A program made the translations under genes and the position numbers. From a virus, in IMG/VR virus record IMGVR_UViG_3300006789_000148, positions 1-24,740 of that record: a DNA stretch of 24,740 nt, one strand, 5' to 3'. This document shows positions 4,024 to 19,360 of this stretch, in pieces (positions within the stretch are counted from its first letter, which is position 1; the number at the start of each line of letters is the position of its first letter). The notes under the pieces were generated by a model that saw only the letters and a list, made by a program, of their open reading frames with translations, was not told the DNA's origin and ran no database searches.

Positions 4024-4401
4024 TTAATTAAACTCAAAGTTATTAAAATATTTTGAATTATCATTTTTCATATTTAATCTTATACACAATCTTTTACCAT
4101 TATTTTTAAATATAAAAAAGCCTTCATATAATTTAACATATATTGCAAAAAAGTCTACATCGTCCAAAGAATAGCTTTTATTCCAATTAACTGAAACTGT
4201 ATGCCTATTTTTAGCTTCACTTTGCCACGAAGATTTTACTTGTATTTTATATAACCCGTTTGGTGTGTCTACTATGCAATCATAGGGTGATGAATCTAAT
4301 AATGGGTAAGAAATAATAATATTATGTTTTAAACATTCTGTACCAAATAAATATTCAGCATAACAACCACGTATATTATTATCCACAAATTCAAGATACA
4401 A
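4024..4401 (-). CDS. PD-(D/E)XK nuclease-like protein (PDDEXK_5 / endonuclease-like)
   Basis: The product is about 125 residues. It shows the order of a small PD-(D/E)XK fold: an N-terminal helix with GCYAEYLFGTECLKHN (Glu at about residue 16), a strand PLLDSSPYDCIVDT (Asp at about 41), then a strand with the YKIQVKSS motif (Q-x-K) and HTVSVNWN, and a last strand region DDVDFFAIYV. This layout is that of the group-I-intron-related PDDEXK_5 family, which includes homing-type and resolvase-like nucleases. No ATG is available upstream of the first motif, so the start must be TTG at 4401 or GTG near 4386. The start sits in the T-tract of one terminator, and another terminator follows the stop. 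It looks like an inserted single-gene unit. Whether it is active is not shown. Confidence 0.65.
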   Translation of the reverse strand: MYLEFVDNNIRGCYAEYLFGTECLKHNIIISYPLLDSSPYDCIVDTPNGLYKIQVKSSWQSEAKNRHTVSVNWNKSYSLDDVDFFAIYVKLYEGFFIFKNNGKRLCIRLNMKNDNSKYFNNFEFN

Positions 4402-12149: not shown

Positions 12150-13823
12150 TTAAAAAGGAATATTATCTTTTATTACTTCAAATCGTTGTTTATGTTTATC
12201 AATTGATTTGTATACACCTCCATTATTAAAATCAGGTGCAATCATAAAGTCACCTTGTTTACCATTTTCTTTTCTTTTAACTTTTTGAACATATATGCTT
12301 ACACTGTCAGAGCCGTAAATAGTTTTTTGCCCAATATTTCTGTAAACAGTAACACAATTGTATGCTTTGTTAAAGAAGTCACTTGACTGGGAAATATCAT
12401 AAGGATTTGGCACTCTATATTTGCCCTCATTAGATTCCATTTTTCTAGGGTGAGCAACTAAAAATAAGTGTGTTTTAGTTTGTTGGCAGAACTGTGTTAT
12501 TTCAGAAAGTAATTTACCGACATAAGTAAAATCTTTTTGCTGTGAATGGTCAAGCATATTCCAAGGGTCAATGACACAAATATTAATTCCGTTAGTAAAT
12601 ACAAGCTGTTTAAATTTATCAAGAATTGATTTAAGTGATAAATTATTTAAATCTATTTTAACAAAGTAAAAATGTTCTTTAATAAAGTCCTTTGTATTGT
12701 TAAGAGTATCGTTATCACAATCTCTTTCATTAAGTTTATTAGCTATTCTTTTTATATGAGCCTCATAAGGATAGGATTCGGGAGTAAACATTCCGATTCG
12801 AAAATTTTGGTTTGTTGCAAGATTAACACAAACTTGGTCTATCCAATCGGATTTTCCAGCATTAGGAATTCCAGTGACAACACTCCATTCTCCCATAGAT
12901 ATATTAATATATTCTTTAGAGTCGCCTATTTTAATGTCATAATTTTTAATTCCGTTATCATTAAAATTTAAAACATTATCCCATATATCATCTATGTTTA
13001 CTATTCCTTCAACTGGAAAAGTTTTAGGTTTGTTTAATATTTCACGAAGTTCTGTAGGACCTTTGCTTACTAATATTTCATTTGCATCTTTGAACTCTCC
13101 AAACTCTATATATTTACATCTGTGTTGACCAAATCTTCTTGCAAGTTCATTGCGAAGTTGTAGTCCAGCCTGGTCATTATCAGTGCATAAAATAATACAT
13201 TTTTTCTTTTCAAAATACTCATAGCAATTATCTAAATAATCAAGCCTTTGATTACCAAGAGAAGCGCCATTAGGAACACTACAAACACTATATATTCCTG
13301 CTTCGTGTAGTGAAAGAGCATCCATTTCCCCTTCGGTAATATAAATTGTGTCCATTTCTTTAATATTGTCAAGACCATAAAAAATTAATTCAGCATCTTT
13401 AACCATTTTAAAGTTCTTTTCAGCATCTCTAAATTTTACATTTACAAGTTCGCCTTTACGATAATAATTAAAGTTTACAGCATTTCTTCTTTTTTCTATT
13501 TGCGGAAAATATTCTTTAGATTCACCTATTTTCCAATGAGCTACAGTTGCCTCGGAAACACCTCTTTTTGCAAACCATTTTACAAGCCTTTCAGAAACAT
13601 CAGCATTTACCTTTACAGGTTTTATATATTCTTTCTTTTTAGTAAGATTTACATTACCTGACCAATCACAATGATGACAATTATATAAACCTTTTTCGGT
13701 GTTTACTGATAAACATCTATCGGATTTATTTTTTCTTGTTGGCGAACATTTTGGACAGGTTAGTTTTAAGTCGCCACTTCGTCCTTTGGTATCAATACCA
13801 TACTCTAAAAATTTCTCAAACAT
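12150..13823 (-). CDS. Primase-helicase (T7 gp4/Twinkle-like)
   Basis: A 557-residue replicative enzyme with three parts. The N-terminal zinc ribbon (about 20-60) has CPKC at 23-26 and CHHC at 49-52. The TOPRIM primase domain follows, with YITEGEMDAL (Glu164) and CTDNDQAG (DxD at 215-217). The RecA-like hexameric helicase has Walker A GIPNAGKS (318-325), Glu349 in MFTPES, Walker B INICVIDPWNM (Asp419) and FLVAHPRKM (His458). It unwinds DNA at the fork and makes primers. The family is well known from T7-like and many siphophages. The HTH replication protein upstream may load or position it at the origin. Confidence 0.93.
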   Translation of the reverse strand: MFEKFLEYGIDTKGRSGDLKLTCPKCSPTRKNKSDRCLSVNTEKGLYNCHHCDWSGNVNLTKKKEYIKPVKVNADVSERLVKWFAKRGVSEATVAHWKIGESKEYFPQIEKRRNAVNFNYYRKGELVNVKFRDAEKNFKMVKDAELIFYGLDNIKEMDTIYITEGEMDALSLHEAGIYSVCSVPNGASLGNQRLDYLDNCYEYFEKKKCIILCTDNDQAGLQLRNELARRFGQHRCKYIEFGEFKDANEILVSKGPTELREILNKPKTFPVEGIVNIDDIWDNVLNFNDNGIKNYDIKIGDSKEYINISMGEWSVVTGIPNAGKSDWIDQVCVNLATNQNFRIGMFTPESYPYEAHIKRIANKLNERDCDNDTLNNTKDFIKEHFYFVKIDLNNLSLKSILDKFKQLVFTNGINICVIDPWNMLDHSQQKDFTYVGKLLSEITQFCQQTKTHLFLVAHPRKMESNEGKYRVPNPYDISQSSDFFNKAYNCVTVYRNIGQKTIYGSDSVSIYVQKVKRKENGKQGDFMIAPDFNNGGVYKSIDKHKQRFEVIKDNIPF

Positions 13824-13834
13824 TCTCTTTTGTT

Positions 13835-14266
13835 TTAAAATTTACACTTAACTATATTGTAAAATTTGCCTATATCATTTAAACAAGTTATTAATTTTTG
13901 TTTTCTTTTTGACCATTTACCTTGAAAATATATTTCAGTAACGGTACAAAGTTTTAAAGGTATATCGGTTTTTTTATTACGATGGTCGTGTTCTACCTTT
14001 AGAATTAAACCGTTTTTATCTTTTTCATTATTCCAAGCATTGCAAATACGTTCCAACATTAATCTTTGACCGGTTGGTATTTGTTTGTCTTTAATTTTAA
14101 TTTCCATTAGAATTAAGAGCTTGTTATCAAATTCAAGTACTGCATCAATATCCGAAGGGTGCATATTTTTATTTTGTACACCTTCAAAATCAATGGCTTG
14201 AACTACTTTATCACTGTCGTTTATTAACCCCATATTTTCCATTAAATCCATTATTATTAAATCCAT
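13835..14266 (-). CDS. PD-(D/E)XK-like phage protein, 143 aa
   Basis: The core reads HPSDIDAVLEFDNKLLILME, then IKIKDKQIPTGQRLMLERIC. Asp residues before the strand, then E-x-K in ILMEIKIKD, then the conserved-looking PTGQRL helix, fit a PD-(D/E)XK nuclease fold of the type seen in phage replication modules. The rest is basic, ending in VKCKF. It may act on replication or recombination intermediates together with the nucleases upstream. Activity is inferred from the motif only. It lies between the HTH replication gene (3 nt gap) and the primase-helicase. Confidence 0.6.
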   Translation of the reverse strand: MDLIIMDLMENMGLINDSDKVVQAIDFEGVQNKNMHPSDIDAVLEFDNKLLILMEIKIKDKQIPTGQRLMLERICNAWNNEKDKNGLILKVEHDHRNKKTDIPLKLCTVTEIYFQGKWSKRKQKLITCLNDIGKFYNIVKCKF

Positions 14267-14269
14267 AAA

Positions 14270-14983
14270 TCATAATCCTAGTTCTTCTATTTCTTTTGCA
14301 AATCGTTGTTCAAACTTTACAATGTATTTTACTCCGTTATTATCATTTTTACGAAGTTTTAATATTGATAAAAAATTATCTTTCCAGAAATCATCACGTC
14401 TTACTTTCTTTGAAATAAAATAAACCTTTCTTGGGTTATATTTATCTAATCTATCTAATTTATCTATGCAATCAAGCCAAGCCTCTTTTTGTGATTTAGT
14501 TGTTGGTCTTAATTTTTCTGGAAAAAGACTTGCAATTGGCTCTAAACTATTTTTAACTAAATCAGAAAATTTCTTATTTTTTGACTTGACGGTATTATTT
14601 ATTATATTATTATTATTATATATATTATTATTAATAACCTTAAACTTTTCTTTAAGGGGGTCATTAACTTTTCTTTGGGGGGGTATTAAAGATTTCTTTA
14701 AGGGGGTGGAAATAAATATTCGTCTTTCTTTTATTTGAGTTGTCCCTGGCATATACATATATTTCACCCTTATATATTCTTTGTCATTCAATTGTTTAAT
14801 CCATTTAGAAACAGATACAGTAGAAACTTTATAAAGGTTAGCAAAATATTTATTGCTGCCGTAACAATAACCTTGTTCATTAGATAAAGCTGTTATTTCG
14901 CCATACATAAGTTTTGCATTTGGAGTTAAATTATCATCATATCTAATGTTTGCAGGAATAATTGCATAATAACTTTTATTCAT
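14270..14983 (-). CDS. Winged-helix replication initiator-like protein (HTH_36)
   Basis: A 237-residue protein. The N-terminal domain (about 1-92) is a helix-turn-helix of the HTH_36 type: YYAIIPANIRYDDNLTPNAK, LMYGEITALSNEQGYCYGSN, YFANLYKVSTVSVSKWIKQL, then a wing DKEYIRVKYMYMPGTTQ. Residues 94-130 are low complexity (Pro/Lys blocks, then Asn-rich) and are encoded by the repeat and A/T-only DNA described separately. The C-terminal 90 residues have a helical domain (EAWLDCIDKLDRLDKYNPRK). The layout matches phage replisome organiser proteins that bind repeats within their own gene, as lambda O does. The primase-helicase two genes on is the natural partner. Confidence 0.75.
   Translation of the reverse strand: MNKSYYAIIPANIRYDDNLTPNAKLMYGEITALSNEQGYCYGSNKYFANLYKVSTVSVSKWIKQLNDKEYIRVKYMYMPGTTQIKERRIFISTPLKKSLIPPQRKVNDPLKEKFKVINNNIYNNNNIINNTVKSKNKKFSDLVKNSLEPIASLFPEKLRPTTKSQKEAWLDCIDKLDRLDKYNPRKVYFISKKVRRDDFWKDNFLSILKLRKNDNNGVKYIVKFEQRFAKEIEELGL
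14593..14637. other. 45-nt A/T-only stretch, candidate DNA-unwinding element
   Basis: An uninterrupted run of A and T only, made of ATT/ATA units, lies inside the replication gene and encodes the Asn/Ile run at about residues 118-130. It begins 3 nt beyond the direct-repeat array. Repeats beside such an easily melted stretch are the usual arrangement of an iteron-type origin. The melting role is inferred. Confidence 0.5.
14641..14706. repeat. Three iteron-like direct repeats, 23-bp period
   Basis: Copies start at 14641, 14664 and 14687, each 20 nt long and ending in a G run. The common form is TAAACTTTTCTTTAAGGGGG; each other copy differs from it at 2-3 positions. The period, 23 bp, is not a multiple of 3, so the copies are read in different frames by the surrounding gene. 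That means the DNA sequence and not the peptide is what is repeated. 23 bp is near two helical turns, so proteins bound to the copies would lie on roughly the same face. Confidence 0.75.
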
Positions 14984-15236
14984 AAAGCCTAGAATCCTTT
15001 AAGTTTTTAAAGTCAATACAAAATATTCGCAGTTCATCATAAAGAGCCTGAACATTATCCCTAGATATATAATCATCCTCAAATATTACAAACAATGCTT
15101 CTAAAAACATATCAAACTCGGCATTAGACAATCTACCTATATAACTATAATTTAAGTGGTCGTCAAAAGTAGCGTGAGAAGTAAATCGAATTCTCTGTTT
15201 TTCTTCAGACCAAAAAACCATTTTATAACTATACAT
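14976..15236 (-). CDS. Hypothetical protein, 86 aa
   Basis: An acidic protein with a beta-like N-terminus (MYSYKMVFWSEEKQRIRFTS) and a helical C-terminal half (DMFLEALFVIFEDDYISRDN, then ALYDELRIFC). No motif or membrane segment is convincing. It overlaps the VRR-NUC fusion gene upstream by 8 nt and the HTH gene downstream by 8 nt, so it belongs to the same operon and is probably translated with them. Small acidic proteins in such places can be accessory replication factors, but nothing in the sequence shows this. Not recognised. Confidence 0.65.
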   Translation of the reverse strand: MYSYKMVFWSEEKQRIRFTSHATFDDHLNYSYIGRLSNAEFDMFLEALFVIFEDDYISRDNVQALYDELRIFCIDFKNLKDSRLYE

Positions 15237-15882
15237 AACTCATATATGAATCTATAATTTCTTTTGCTTTATCAAATGTATTAGTCCATTCAGCCCTCCA
15301 GTTCGCATTTTCAAGCGATTTAAGAGCGTTTAACTGGCTCTCTGTAGGTTTATTATACCCAACCTTTAGTTCTATCGCTAAACCAGCCTTAAATTCGTTT
15401 TGTTTAAAAATCAAAACATCAGGTACTCCAGCTTTCCCTCCAAGGTATTTAAATTTGTATCTTTCAAAATGACTTCTTTTCCCCTCATTTGCAACGTGAA
15501 TGCAATAAACATTAGGGTATTGCAGCGCTATATAATCCATAACTGCTCTCTGCAGCTTATCTTCTTTGGTTAAATACTTCTCAAAAGGGTTTGCCATTTT
15601 TAATCTTTTTATACATTTTCTCCTTAAATTTAAATAATCTTTTTTGTATTTAGTATCATACTCAATAATATTATTTATTTGTTTATGTCCATTTATAATG
15701 GTAGCGTGAGTTTTACCAACATAATTTCCAATATCATTATAAGATGCACTTTTTAACAAATCCTTTGAACATTTATAAAAAAAACCTCTTGCATCAGTTA
15801 TTTGCCTTCTTCTAGTATTGGTCATAATATTGACCTTAAAATGCTTTTCAACTTCTTTTTTTATTAGTGTAAGTTCTTTCAT
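15229..15882 (-). CDS. DnaA domain IV-like and VRR-NUC fusion protein
   Basis: A 217-residue protein in two parts. Residues about 20-75 resemble DnaA domain IV, a DNA-binding HTH: RRRQITDARGFFYKC, SYNDIGNYVGKTHATIINGH and KQI. Residues about 100-217 form a VRR-NUC nuclease domain: EDKLQRAVMDYIALQYPN, VANEGKRS, GGKAGVPDVLIF (Asp of the active site) and LAIELKVGYNKPTESQ (E-x-K), then W-W spacing. VRR-NUC enzymes cut branched or flap DNA. The ATG at residue 96 (15597) follows an AGATTAAAA leader, so a separate nuclease product is possible. The ATGA overlap with the exonuclease upstream couples the two genes. Confidence 0.78.
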   Translation of the reverse strand: MKELTLIKKEVEKHFKVNIMTNTRRRQITDARGFFYKCSKDLLKSASYNDIGNYVGKTHATIINGHKQINNIIEYDTKYKKDYLNLRRKCIKRLKMANPFEKYLTKEDKLQRAVMDYIALQYPNVYCIHVANEGKRSHFERYKFKYLGGKAGVPDVLIFKQNEFKAGLAIELKVGYNKPTESQLNALKSLENANWRAEWTNTFDKAKEIIDSYMSYV

Positions 15883-17784: not shown

Positions 17785-18045
17785 TTACCATTTACCTAAA
17801 GGACATTTCGCCTCTGGTGCTAAAGATTTAGCTGCAATGTTGCAACCGCACCCATAAACCAATTGACCACTTTCTATATGTTTACCTTTTTTGCTAGGAG
17901 AACAAGTGTTACCTTCTCTCATGTGGCAAAAATGACAATTATATAACCTCAATTCAGACTGTTCTTTAGTTTGTTCGTCTAACATATTAAATTGACTTAA
18001 AACTAAATTTCCCCATCCTTGAAGAATATCCTTTATAATTTTCAT
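17785..18045 (-). CDS. Cys-rich, putative zinc-binding protein, 86 aa
   Basis: The first gene after the tail module. The N-terminus is a helix (MKIIKDILQGWGNLVLSQFN). The second half has cysteines arranged CHFCHMREGNTC, GCGC and a C-terminal CPLGKW, a pattern that looks metal-binding. I recall similar proteins in early operons of flavobacterial phages but no function. It starts 5 nt before the HTH gene, so the two are probably one operon, preceded by 55 nt of A/T-rich gap. A role in regulation or in recruiting a partner protein is inference. Confidence 0.65.
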   Translation of the reverse strand: MKIIKDILQGWGNLVLSQFNMLDEQTKEQSELRLYNCHFCHMREGNTCSPSKKGKHIESGQLVYGCGCNIAAKSLAPEAKCPLGKW

Positions 18046-18100
18046 ACAGCTAAAATAAAAAATATTTTAAATATAAAAAAATTTTTTGTATAATTATTTT
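18046..18100. other. AT-rich junction of tail and replication operons
   Basis: 55 nt between the stop of the tail gene and the ATG at 18045, almost all A/T, with an AAAAAATTTTTT inverted run. It probably carries the promoter of the replication operon. I find no good TAnnTTTG plus upstream TTG, and no GC-rich terminator hairpin. Confidence 0.35.
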
Positions 18101-19360
18101 TTAATCCTCGTAGTAAAACTCATCAAAAGTAAGTATGTCGTCGTCTTGATTTGGTAAGTGCATTATTATTTTATATGTATTTGATTTCACGTTGTATTCC
18201 ATAGAATCAATAATTGCAGAAGATGAATCTTGAAGGGTCGAGGTACCAAAGTTTACCCAAATTTTATTAAAAAATTGTAACGGGTCTGTTGAATCATCTT
18301 TTCTATAAAAGTCACCTTCATATCTTTTTACAGATACTCTATAATCATTTATTACCTCTTGATTTACGATTGAATCTAAAGTTTTTGATTCAGGAAAGTT
18401 TTTTCTTTTAAAACTACCCTCAAACCCACCTACAAATAAAGATTCTTTTAAATTATTTGTATTAAGTTTTTTGCCTTGTTTTAATGAACCCGTTACCCTT
18501 GTAAATTCAGTAATTATTCCTAAAGTAAAAATACCTTGTGTTTTCTTTTCTATAAACTTTTTACCTAAAGTGTTTTTGTTTCCTAAATAAAATGCGTCAT
18601 AATAATTTGCGCCAAATAAAAATCCAGTTGTGTTTCTTGCAGGTGGATAAATACTAATTTTAGCTTTTACTGAAGTTGATGTAGTTACTGGAGCGTTTAA
18701 TGTTTGTGAAACCTTAACCCATTGATTTAAACTGTTCGTTGTAAATTGTTTAAAAAACTCATCATCGGTAAAAGTACCTGACTTAAATTTGTTATCTGTA
18801 AAGCTGTATGATAAATCAATATTTCCATCACCTGTTGTGTCTAGCCCAGCACTAACATAAAAAGTATAAGTGTCTTGTAAAATTTGTGATGAAAAATAAT
18901 AATAAAATCCAAATTCTAAATCACTACCTAAATTTATAAAAGTTGTTGGAAGATTTGTAGAAACAATTGGATTACCTTTTGCAGTTCCAGTTGGCATTTG
19001 TGTTACTGGTGATTTAACAATATAATTCCCAGAAATTGGCTTTGGGTCTAATAAACCTGATAGTTGAACTGAATTATTTGTCCCAATATCCCAGTCAAAA
19101 CTTGCATACCTAAATGTTGGATTTTTATTTACAACATCTACATTATTTAATTGTATTTGATTTATAACATTTTTTAAAGGTCTTAAATATTCGACACTTA
19201 AATTTGCATTTATTGGCTGTATTTGTGAAGGTGCTGTAACTAATATATTTTTAGTAGTGTCACCTTTTCTATTGCCTAAATAATCAAATATTACATATTT
19301 AATTTCTTCTTTATTTGTGCTTTGAAGTAGTTGTAATTGTTGTGCTGCTATTGAACCCAT
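18101..19360 (-). CDS. Tail protein with a carbohydrate-binding-like central part
   Basis: A 419-residue beta-rich protein. The N-terminal ~85 residues (IKYVIFDYLGNRKGD, then INANLSVEYLRPLKNV) and the C-terminal ~140 (DYRVSVKRYEGDFYR, FNKIWVNFGT, YNVKSNTYKIIMHLP) look like a tail tip or baseplate frame. Between them, at about residues 130-260, lies a jelly-roll-like segment (LEFGFYYYFSSQI, TFYVSAGLDTTGDGNIDLSY, NQWVKVSQTL, AKISIYPPAR, YYDAFYLG) in the style of carbohydrate-binding modules. I recall that other flavobacterial phages have this C-terminal type on one long tail protein that begins like the 916-residue neighbour. That is unproved. No catalytic motif seen. Confidence 0.6.
   Translation of the reverse strand: MGSIAAQQLQLLQSTNKEEIKYVIFDYLGNRKGDTTKNILVTAPSQIQPINANLSVEYLRPLKNVINQIQLNNVDVVNKNPTFRYASFDWDIGTNNSVQLSGLLDPKPISGNYIVKSPVTQMPTGTAKGNPIVSTNLPTTFINLGSDLEFGFYYYFSSQILQDTYTFYVSAGLDTTGDGNIDLSYSFTDNKFKSGTFTDDEFFKQFTTNSLNQWVKVSQTLNAPVTTSTSVKAKISIYPPARNTTGFLFGANYYDAFYLGNKNTLGKKFIEKKTQGIFTLGIITEFTRVTGSLKQGKKLNTNNLKESLFVGGFEGSFKRKNFPESKTLDSIVNQEVINDYRVSVKRYEGDFYRKDDSTDPLQFFNKIWVNFGTSTLQDSSSAIIDSMEYNVKSNTYKIIMHLPNQDDDILTFDEFYYED

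Follow-up and report, generated by a model that had tools for sequence, protein, structure and literature searches.

A putative replication origin within the winged-helix initiator gene of a probable flavobacterial phage

Replication origins that lie inside the genes of their own initiators are a known arrangement, of which lambda O is the textbook case. In lambda, iterons and an A/T tract occupy the middle of the O gene (PMC7466680). The initiators of TP901-1 and Tuc2009 bind repeats within their own genes, and these repeats act as origins (PMC8965321), while SPP1 gp38 has been found experimentally to bind direct repeats within its own gene, with oriL in gene 38 and oriR elsewhere. The Staphylococcus plasmid pPR9 encodes a chimeric Rep in which an HTH_36 N-terminal domain is joined to the C-terminal domain of pSK41, and its origin lies inside rep (PMC5703833); in it, the corresponding ~500 bp of a pSK41-type Rep have given way to the HTH_36 domain together with the origin, and the pPR9 mini-replicon replicates autonomously and is compatible with pSK41 (PMC5703833). 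In the PLE satellites, a RepA_N domain covaries with the origin (PMC8263062).

The origins of uncultured phages are rarely known. The window, by which we mean the whole 24,740-nt stretch of DNA analysed, is an IMG/VR record that represents a linear fragment of an incomplete genome. Its host, judged from the relatives of the terminase and primase, probably belongs to the Bacteroidota and is probably a marine flavobacterium. We propose, with a probability of about 0.88, that positions 14593-14707 of the window are the replication origin of this phage, situated inside the gene of its own initiator. The features on which the proposal draws are as follows.

14270..14983, minus strand: initiator gene, 237 aa (open reading frame; PF13730; phrog_19658; AlphaFold2 model)
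14783..14821, minus strand: recognition-helix codons (residues 55-67, including V56 and K60), placed from the model; columns 56 and 60 covary with the half-site
14686..14706, minus strand: iteron 1, CCCCC + TTAAAG AAAT CTTTAA; dyad 14686-14701, 6/6 pairs
14663..14683, minus strand: iteron 2, CCCCCCCAAAG AAAA GTTAAT; degenerate dyad 14663-14678, 2/6 pairs
14640..14660, minus strand: iteron 3, CCCCC + TTAAAG AAAA GTTTAA; dyad 14640-14655, 5/6 pairs; adjoins the A/T tract
14593..14637, no strand assigned: A/T-only tract, 45 nt, candidate DNA unwinding element; longest A/T run in the window
12150..13823, minus strand: primase-helicase (Toprim_2, 1.2e-13; phrog_239 DNA primase/helicase, 3.4e-83)

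The initial annotation had described the gene as a replication gene of the HTH type encoding a winged-helix protein, and both parts of this description agree with what we found. The protein matches PF13730 (HTH_36) at 43.8 bits against a cut-off of 25, its best PHROG match is phrog_19658, replication initiation protein (1.6e-26), and an AlphaFold2 model with a mean pLDDT of 77 predicts a winged helix at residues ~5-94, with the recognition helix at 55-67 and wing strands at 71-77 and 84-91. Residues 95-135 form a low-confidence linker in the model, which is probably disordered, and are followed by a helical C-terminal domain (141-235); the DNA that encodes the linker consists of the iterons and the A/T tract. 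A sequence search of solved structures with the protein gave no useful match. Fold matches cover its first ~106 residues, and many of the top ones are transcription regulators. Among the best are 4pt7, 4pql and 5kbj (Z 8.6-9.1), which are titled initiator or Rep-DNA complex and which we take to be RepA_N structures; with an rmsd of 4.0-5.6 over 98-101 residues they are tied with unrelated winged helices, and the similarity is one common to many winged helices.

The primase-helicase lies two genes after the initiator, as had been noted, with a single small gene between them. This intervening gene (13835-14266, minus strand, 143 aa) has no Pfam match, and by eye its product shows nuclease-like acidic and EIK motifs. 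Upstream of the initiator, again with one small gene between, 15229-15882 (minus strand) encodes DnaA domain IV (PF08299, 6.9e-9) fused to a VRR_NUC nuclease-like domain, the latter match (22.9 bits) falling just below the cut-off. A gene annotated as DnaA is also found upstream of the initiator in Polaribacter phage P12002L (L350:482-961), but the two proteins showed no similarity on comparison. The sole plus-strand open reading frame longer than 120 aa is 4024-4401, all other likely genes being on the minus strand.

Three direct repeats 23 bp apart had been reported within the initiator gene, with the copies read in different frames, and this proved correct on both counts. The repeats occupy 14640-14661, 14663-14684 and 14686-14707 (22 nt each, start-to-start distances 23 and 23), are 82-91% identical to the reference copy, and fall in all three frames. 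Scored as an equally spaced three-copy repeat they give 53 of 63 matches, a value reached by none of 400 dinucleotide shuffles of the initiator gene (maximum 46) and by none of 400 synonymous-codon shuffles that kept the protein (maximum 49); all other 714-nt stretches of the window, those holding the repeats themselves aside, score 46 or less. The unit had been seen as a direct repeat ending in a G run. The repeats are real, and we refine the unit to a dyad with an A-rich centre and a flanking C/G run. The array comprises only three copies, and iteron 2 is a poor dyad: on the coding strand it reads CCCCCCC AAAG AAAA GTTAAT, its C-run overlapping the dyad arm. Near-identical contigs from other metagenomes break within the array (L002:1-90 and the 3' ends of L007 and L024), as if assembly had failed at the repeats.

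The A/T-only stretch of 45 nt beside the repeats, also pointed out initially, was found at 14593-14637; in 200 shuffled windows the A/T-only run had a mean of 26 nt and a maximum of 39. The second longest run in the window (18051-18087, 37 nt) lies in the gap between 17785-18045 and 18101-19360 and is without iteron-type repeats. A cumulative GC-skew minimum, which had been suggested as a check, does not occur at the site; the skew declines steadily over the whole window, a consequence of almost every gene lying on the minus strand, which masks the signal. The window contains 33 DnaA boxes against 45.7 expected, with no cluster at the repeats, and an Rfam search of the window for RNA elements gave no match.

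A search of the rest of the 24.7-kb record for a second iteron cluster, or for the motif elsewhere, found none. This bears on the possibility that the phage, like SPP1, has two initiator-binding regions, the window array being one of them and the main origin being located in the part of the genome that is missing. The second initiator-binding site of SPP1 is ~13 kb away, and the record is a linear fragment, both of which favour such a reading; given that no second cluster lies within 24.7 kb, however, we regard it as unlikely.

Relatives of the initiator provide a broader basis for judging the array. A tblastn search with the initiator returned 105 phage records, chiefly from Staphylococcus, Lactobacillus and Lactococcus, with further matches in Cellulophaga, Polaribacter, Fusobacterium and Pseudomonas phages. 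Scans of IMG/VR and GTDB genomes, together with a dozen further GenBank phages, yielded ~190 distinct genes from phages and prophages of Bacillota, Bacteroidota, spirochaetes and others, which mostly share only the first ~115 residues. Whether relatives keep the repeats had been proposed as a check, and nearly all of the ~190 genes do so, with linker iterons and an A/T tract in the corresponding position: the iterons are 22-24 bp apart, in several reading frames, between the winged helix and the C-terminal domain, and the tract follows. The BK5-T record annotates a repeat region at the place equivalent to the window repeats. Throughout the family the iteron unit combines a run of C or G with a dyad (half-site, AAAA, half-site').

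Direct repeats were found at the equivalent spot in 145 genes, with a spacing mostly of 22, 23 or 24, and in 136 of the 145 the copies occupy more than one reading frame. Units were derived as the consensus of the copies, a simple dyad scan across linkers being too noisy; in 110 of the 145 genes the consensus contains a dyad centred on A in which 4 or more of the 6 pairs match, as against ~14% after shuffling. A second set of 49 further genes behaved in the same way, with 132 of 145 spacings at 22-24. The half-site arms vary widely between phages (TTAAAG, TTGACA, TTAACA, GTGACA, TGGAAG, TCTACA and others). Linker-only synonymous shuffling was beaten outright in no more than 68 of 122 genes, so that for single short arrays a repeat score by itself does not always settle the matter, and it is frames, spacing and covariation that decide.

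Some relatives have few or no clear iterons. Two from Brachyspira (L156 and L165) possess the homologous winged helix without clear C/G-run dyad iterons in the linker; their origin may be gone or built from a different unit. In Cellulophaga phage phi18:3, a C-terminal domain of the window type follows an N-terminal domain that gives no HTH_36 match, and the linker array is also different (L349:1362-1416), with AAAGGGCAAGC-like units and 22-nt matches that step by 11 bp, which is not a multiple of 3. This exchange of domain and array parallels the swap of N-terminal domain and origin in pPR9 and the RepA_N/origin covariation in PLE.

Across the family we defined the tract by its position after the last iteron only, because choosing it by A/T content made the codon test circular. 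Within tracts, AAT accounts for 977 of 996 asparagine codons, compared with 1633 of 2525 in the remainder of these genes. In 179 of 187 genes the GC content of the tract falls below that given by synonymous resampling, and this is true of every one of the 41 genes in the GC-richest class. These figures argue that tract composition is held at the DNA level. The tract motif is nevertheless read in a single frame (AAT AAT) in 439 of 450 cases, so that the tract may be partly protein-level or inherited. In the near relative L002, iteron 3 and the tract differ at 0 of 90 nt; the remaining 309 nt of the gene hold 19 differences, with 14 changed codons synonymous.

For each gene the half-site was derived solely from its DNA and then set against all columns of the N-terminal domain, which gave 396 column pairs. 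The strongest associations were between residue 56 and half-site base 3 (z 19) and between residue 60 and base 5 (z 15). In the recognition helix these residues occupy positions 2 and 6, the usual base-contacting positions of helix-turn-helix proteins.

Predictions were recorded before the 49 further genes were fetched, all of them <95% identical to one another and to any gene of the first set. The rule for residue 60 passed this hold-out, lysine going with A in 5 of 5 genes and arginine with C in 18 of 20; at residue 56, arginine went with G (10/10), as did glutamate (6/6) and lysine (4/6), and valine with A (2/3). The prediction of G for T56 failed, threonine being found with T or C. As a control for relatedness we took 83 genes <80% identical and stratified them by backbone identity outside the helix region. 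In this set R60 accompanied C in 35 of 38 genes, K60 A in 19 of 20, R56 G in all 20, and V56 A in 14 of 15; after stratification the 56/base 3 and 60/base 5 pairs reached 0.58 and 0.56, whereas the mean over the 396 pairs was 0.01 (sd 0.08). Distant pairs of genes with both residues in common shared both bases in 66 of 73 cases, and those with neither in common in 39 of 916.

The window initiator, with V56, K60 and the half-site TTAAAG, fits the two-residue rule, and the same residues and half-site recur in the flavobacterial phage P12002L (complete genome), which has two copies. We consider this covariation the strongest pre-experimental evidence that the initiator binds the window repeats, which it very probably does. 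It is also quite probable, judging from the sequences compared, that in HTH_36 phage initiators of several phyla two bases of the six-base half-site are largely determined by residues 56 and 60, and that each such gene carries initiator and origin as one self-contained pair, with its specificity readable from the sequence.

Covariation points to recognition and says nothing of function, and the repeats might serve the initiator as binding sites mainly for autoregulation, as an intragenic operator or a roadblock. Winged-helix proteins are often repressors, and the many transcription regulators among the top fold matches would fit such a role. On the other hand, an A/T tract kept AT-rich at the DNA level follows the iterons family-wide, the window protein falls in replication-initiation families, and homologous arrangements are proven origins, and we therefore think a mainly regulatory role very improbable. 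The notion that the repeats are a coding feature only, reflecting codon bias in a low-complexity Pro/Lys and Asn-rich linker, is already largely refuted: it would suit the modelled disorder and asparagine content of the linker and those relatives in which synonymous shuffles of the linker match the observed score, but not a period of 23 with copies in three frames, a window score beyond every synonymous shuffle, more than one frame in nearly all the relatives' arrays, or covariation with a distant part of the protein.

We return, then, to the reading of 14593-14707 as an origin. The repeats, the tract, the DNA-level conservation and the covariation of helix and half-site, all obtained by computation, together predict that replication very probably starts with the initiator binding to its own gene; we infer from them origin activity and the following course of events. 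The winged helix would bind to every iteron, probably as a dimer that sits astride the A-rich centre and places a recognition helix in each TTAAAG half-site. With an iteron spacing of 23 bp, or about two helical turns, the bound copies would lie on the same face of the DNA, and, so aligned, could strain and melt the adjoining A/T tract. The C-terminal domain would then recruit a helicase, most simply the phage's own primase-helicase two genes downstream, a partnership that is presumed. The steps after binding are drawn from the lambda, SPP1 and RepA_N systems.

If correct, the architecture of iterons between a winged helix and an Asn-rich linker, combined with a check of two residues, would allow origins to be called from sequence alone across a widespread initiator family. 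The two-residue code predicts which initiators could share an origin, and so bears on phage and plasmid compatibility, as well as on satellites, on the copying of origin-binding domains by phage nucleases (PLE/Odn) and on the resistance that phages encode by means of origin copies. The specificity of the initiator family also becomes directly testable with purified domains. A literature search of limited journal coverage found no earlier recognition-helix/iteron code for phage initiators, and the family-wide unit structure and the two-residue code appear to be undescribed.

The initial annotation had likened the locus to lambda O. The layout does resemble that of lambda O, with iterons and an A/T tract in mid-gene, although unit structure and spacing differ; the protein, on the other hand, has no Pfam match to Phage_rep_O (PF04492) up to E 0.1, and weak O-like PHROG matches involve its C-terminal part only. 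On sequence evidence its closest kin are the HTH_36-type phage initiators (BK5-T, Staphylococcus, Lactobacillus and Polaribacter phages, and the pPR9 chimera), not lambda O. Those of BK5-T (ORF49), P12002L and the Staphylococcus and Lactobacillus phages have a homologous winged helix, iterons 22-24 bp apart at the same place, and an A/T tract after them, the spacing of 46 bp in P12002L being twice 23. Their C-terminal domains differ from that of the window protein, as mostly do their half-sites, P12002L sharing TTAAAG, and where the window phage has a primase-helicase next, its HTH_36 kin have a DnaC-like loader or a DnaB-like helicase. With pPR9 the window has in common HTH_36 and an intragenic origin, putative in the window, but pPR9 is a plasmid and its C-terminal domain is of the RepA_N type. 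The RepA of pSK41 (RepA_N) has a similar layout, in which a winged helix binds Rep boxes in mid-gene, the origin encodes a linker, and the C-terminal domain is separate; the window protein has no Pfam match to RepA_N (PF06970) up to E 0.1. TP901-1 Rep and the window protein have phrog_186, 428 and 270 in common, but the repeats of TP901-1 are shorter and of another type, and it has a DnaB_2 (PF07261) C-terminal domain, which the window protein lacks, with HTH_36 just below the cut-off. The intragenic origin is a type already known from lambda O, SPP1 gp38, TP901-1, BK5-T and pPR9, and the window adds a further, putative case from a probable flavobacterial phage.
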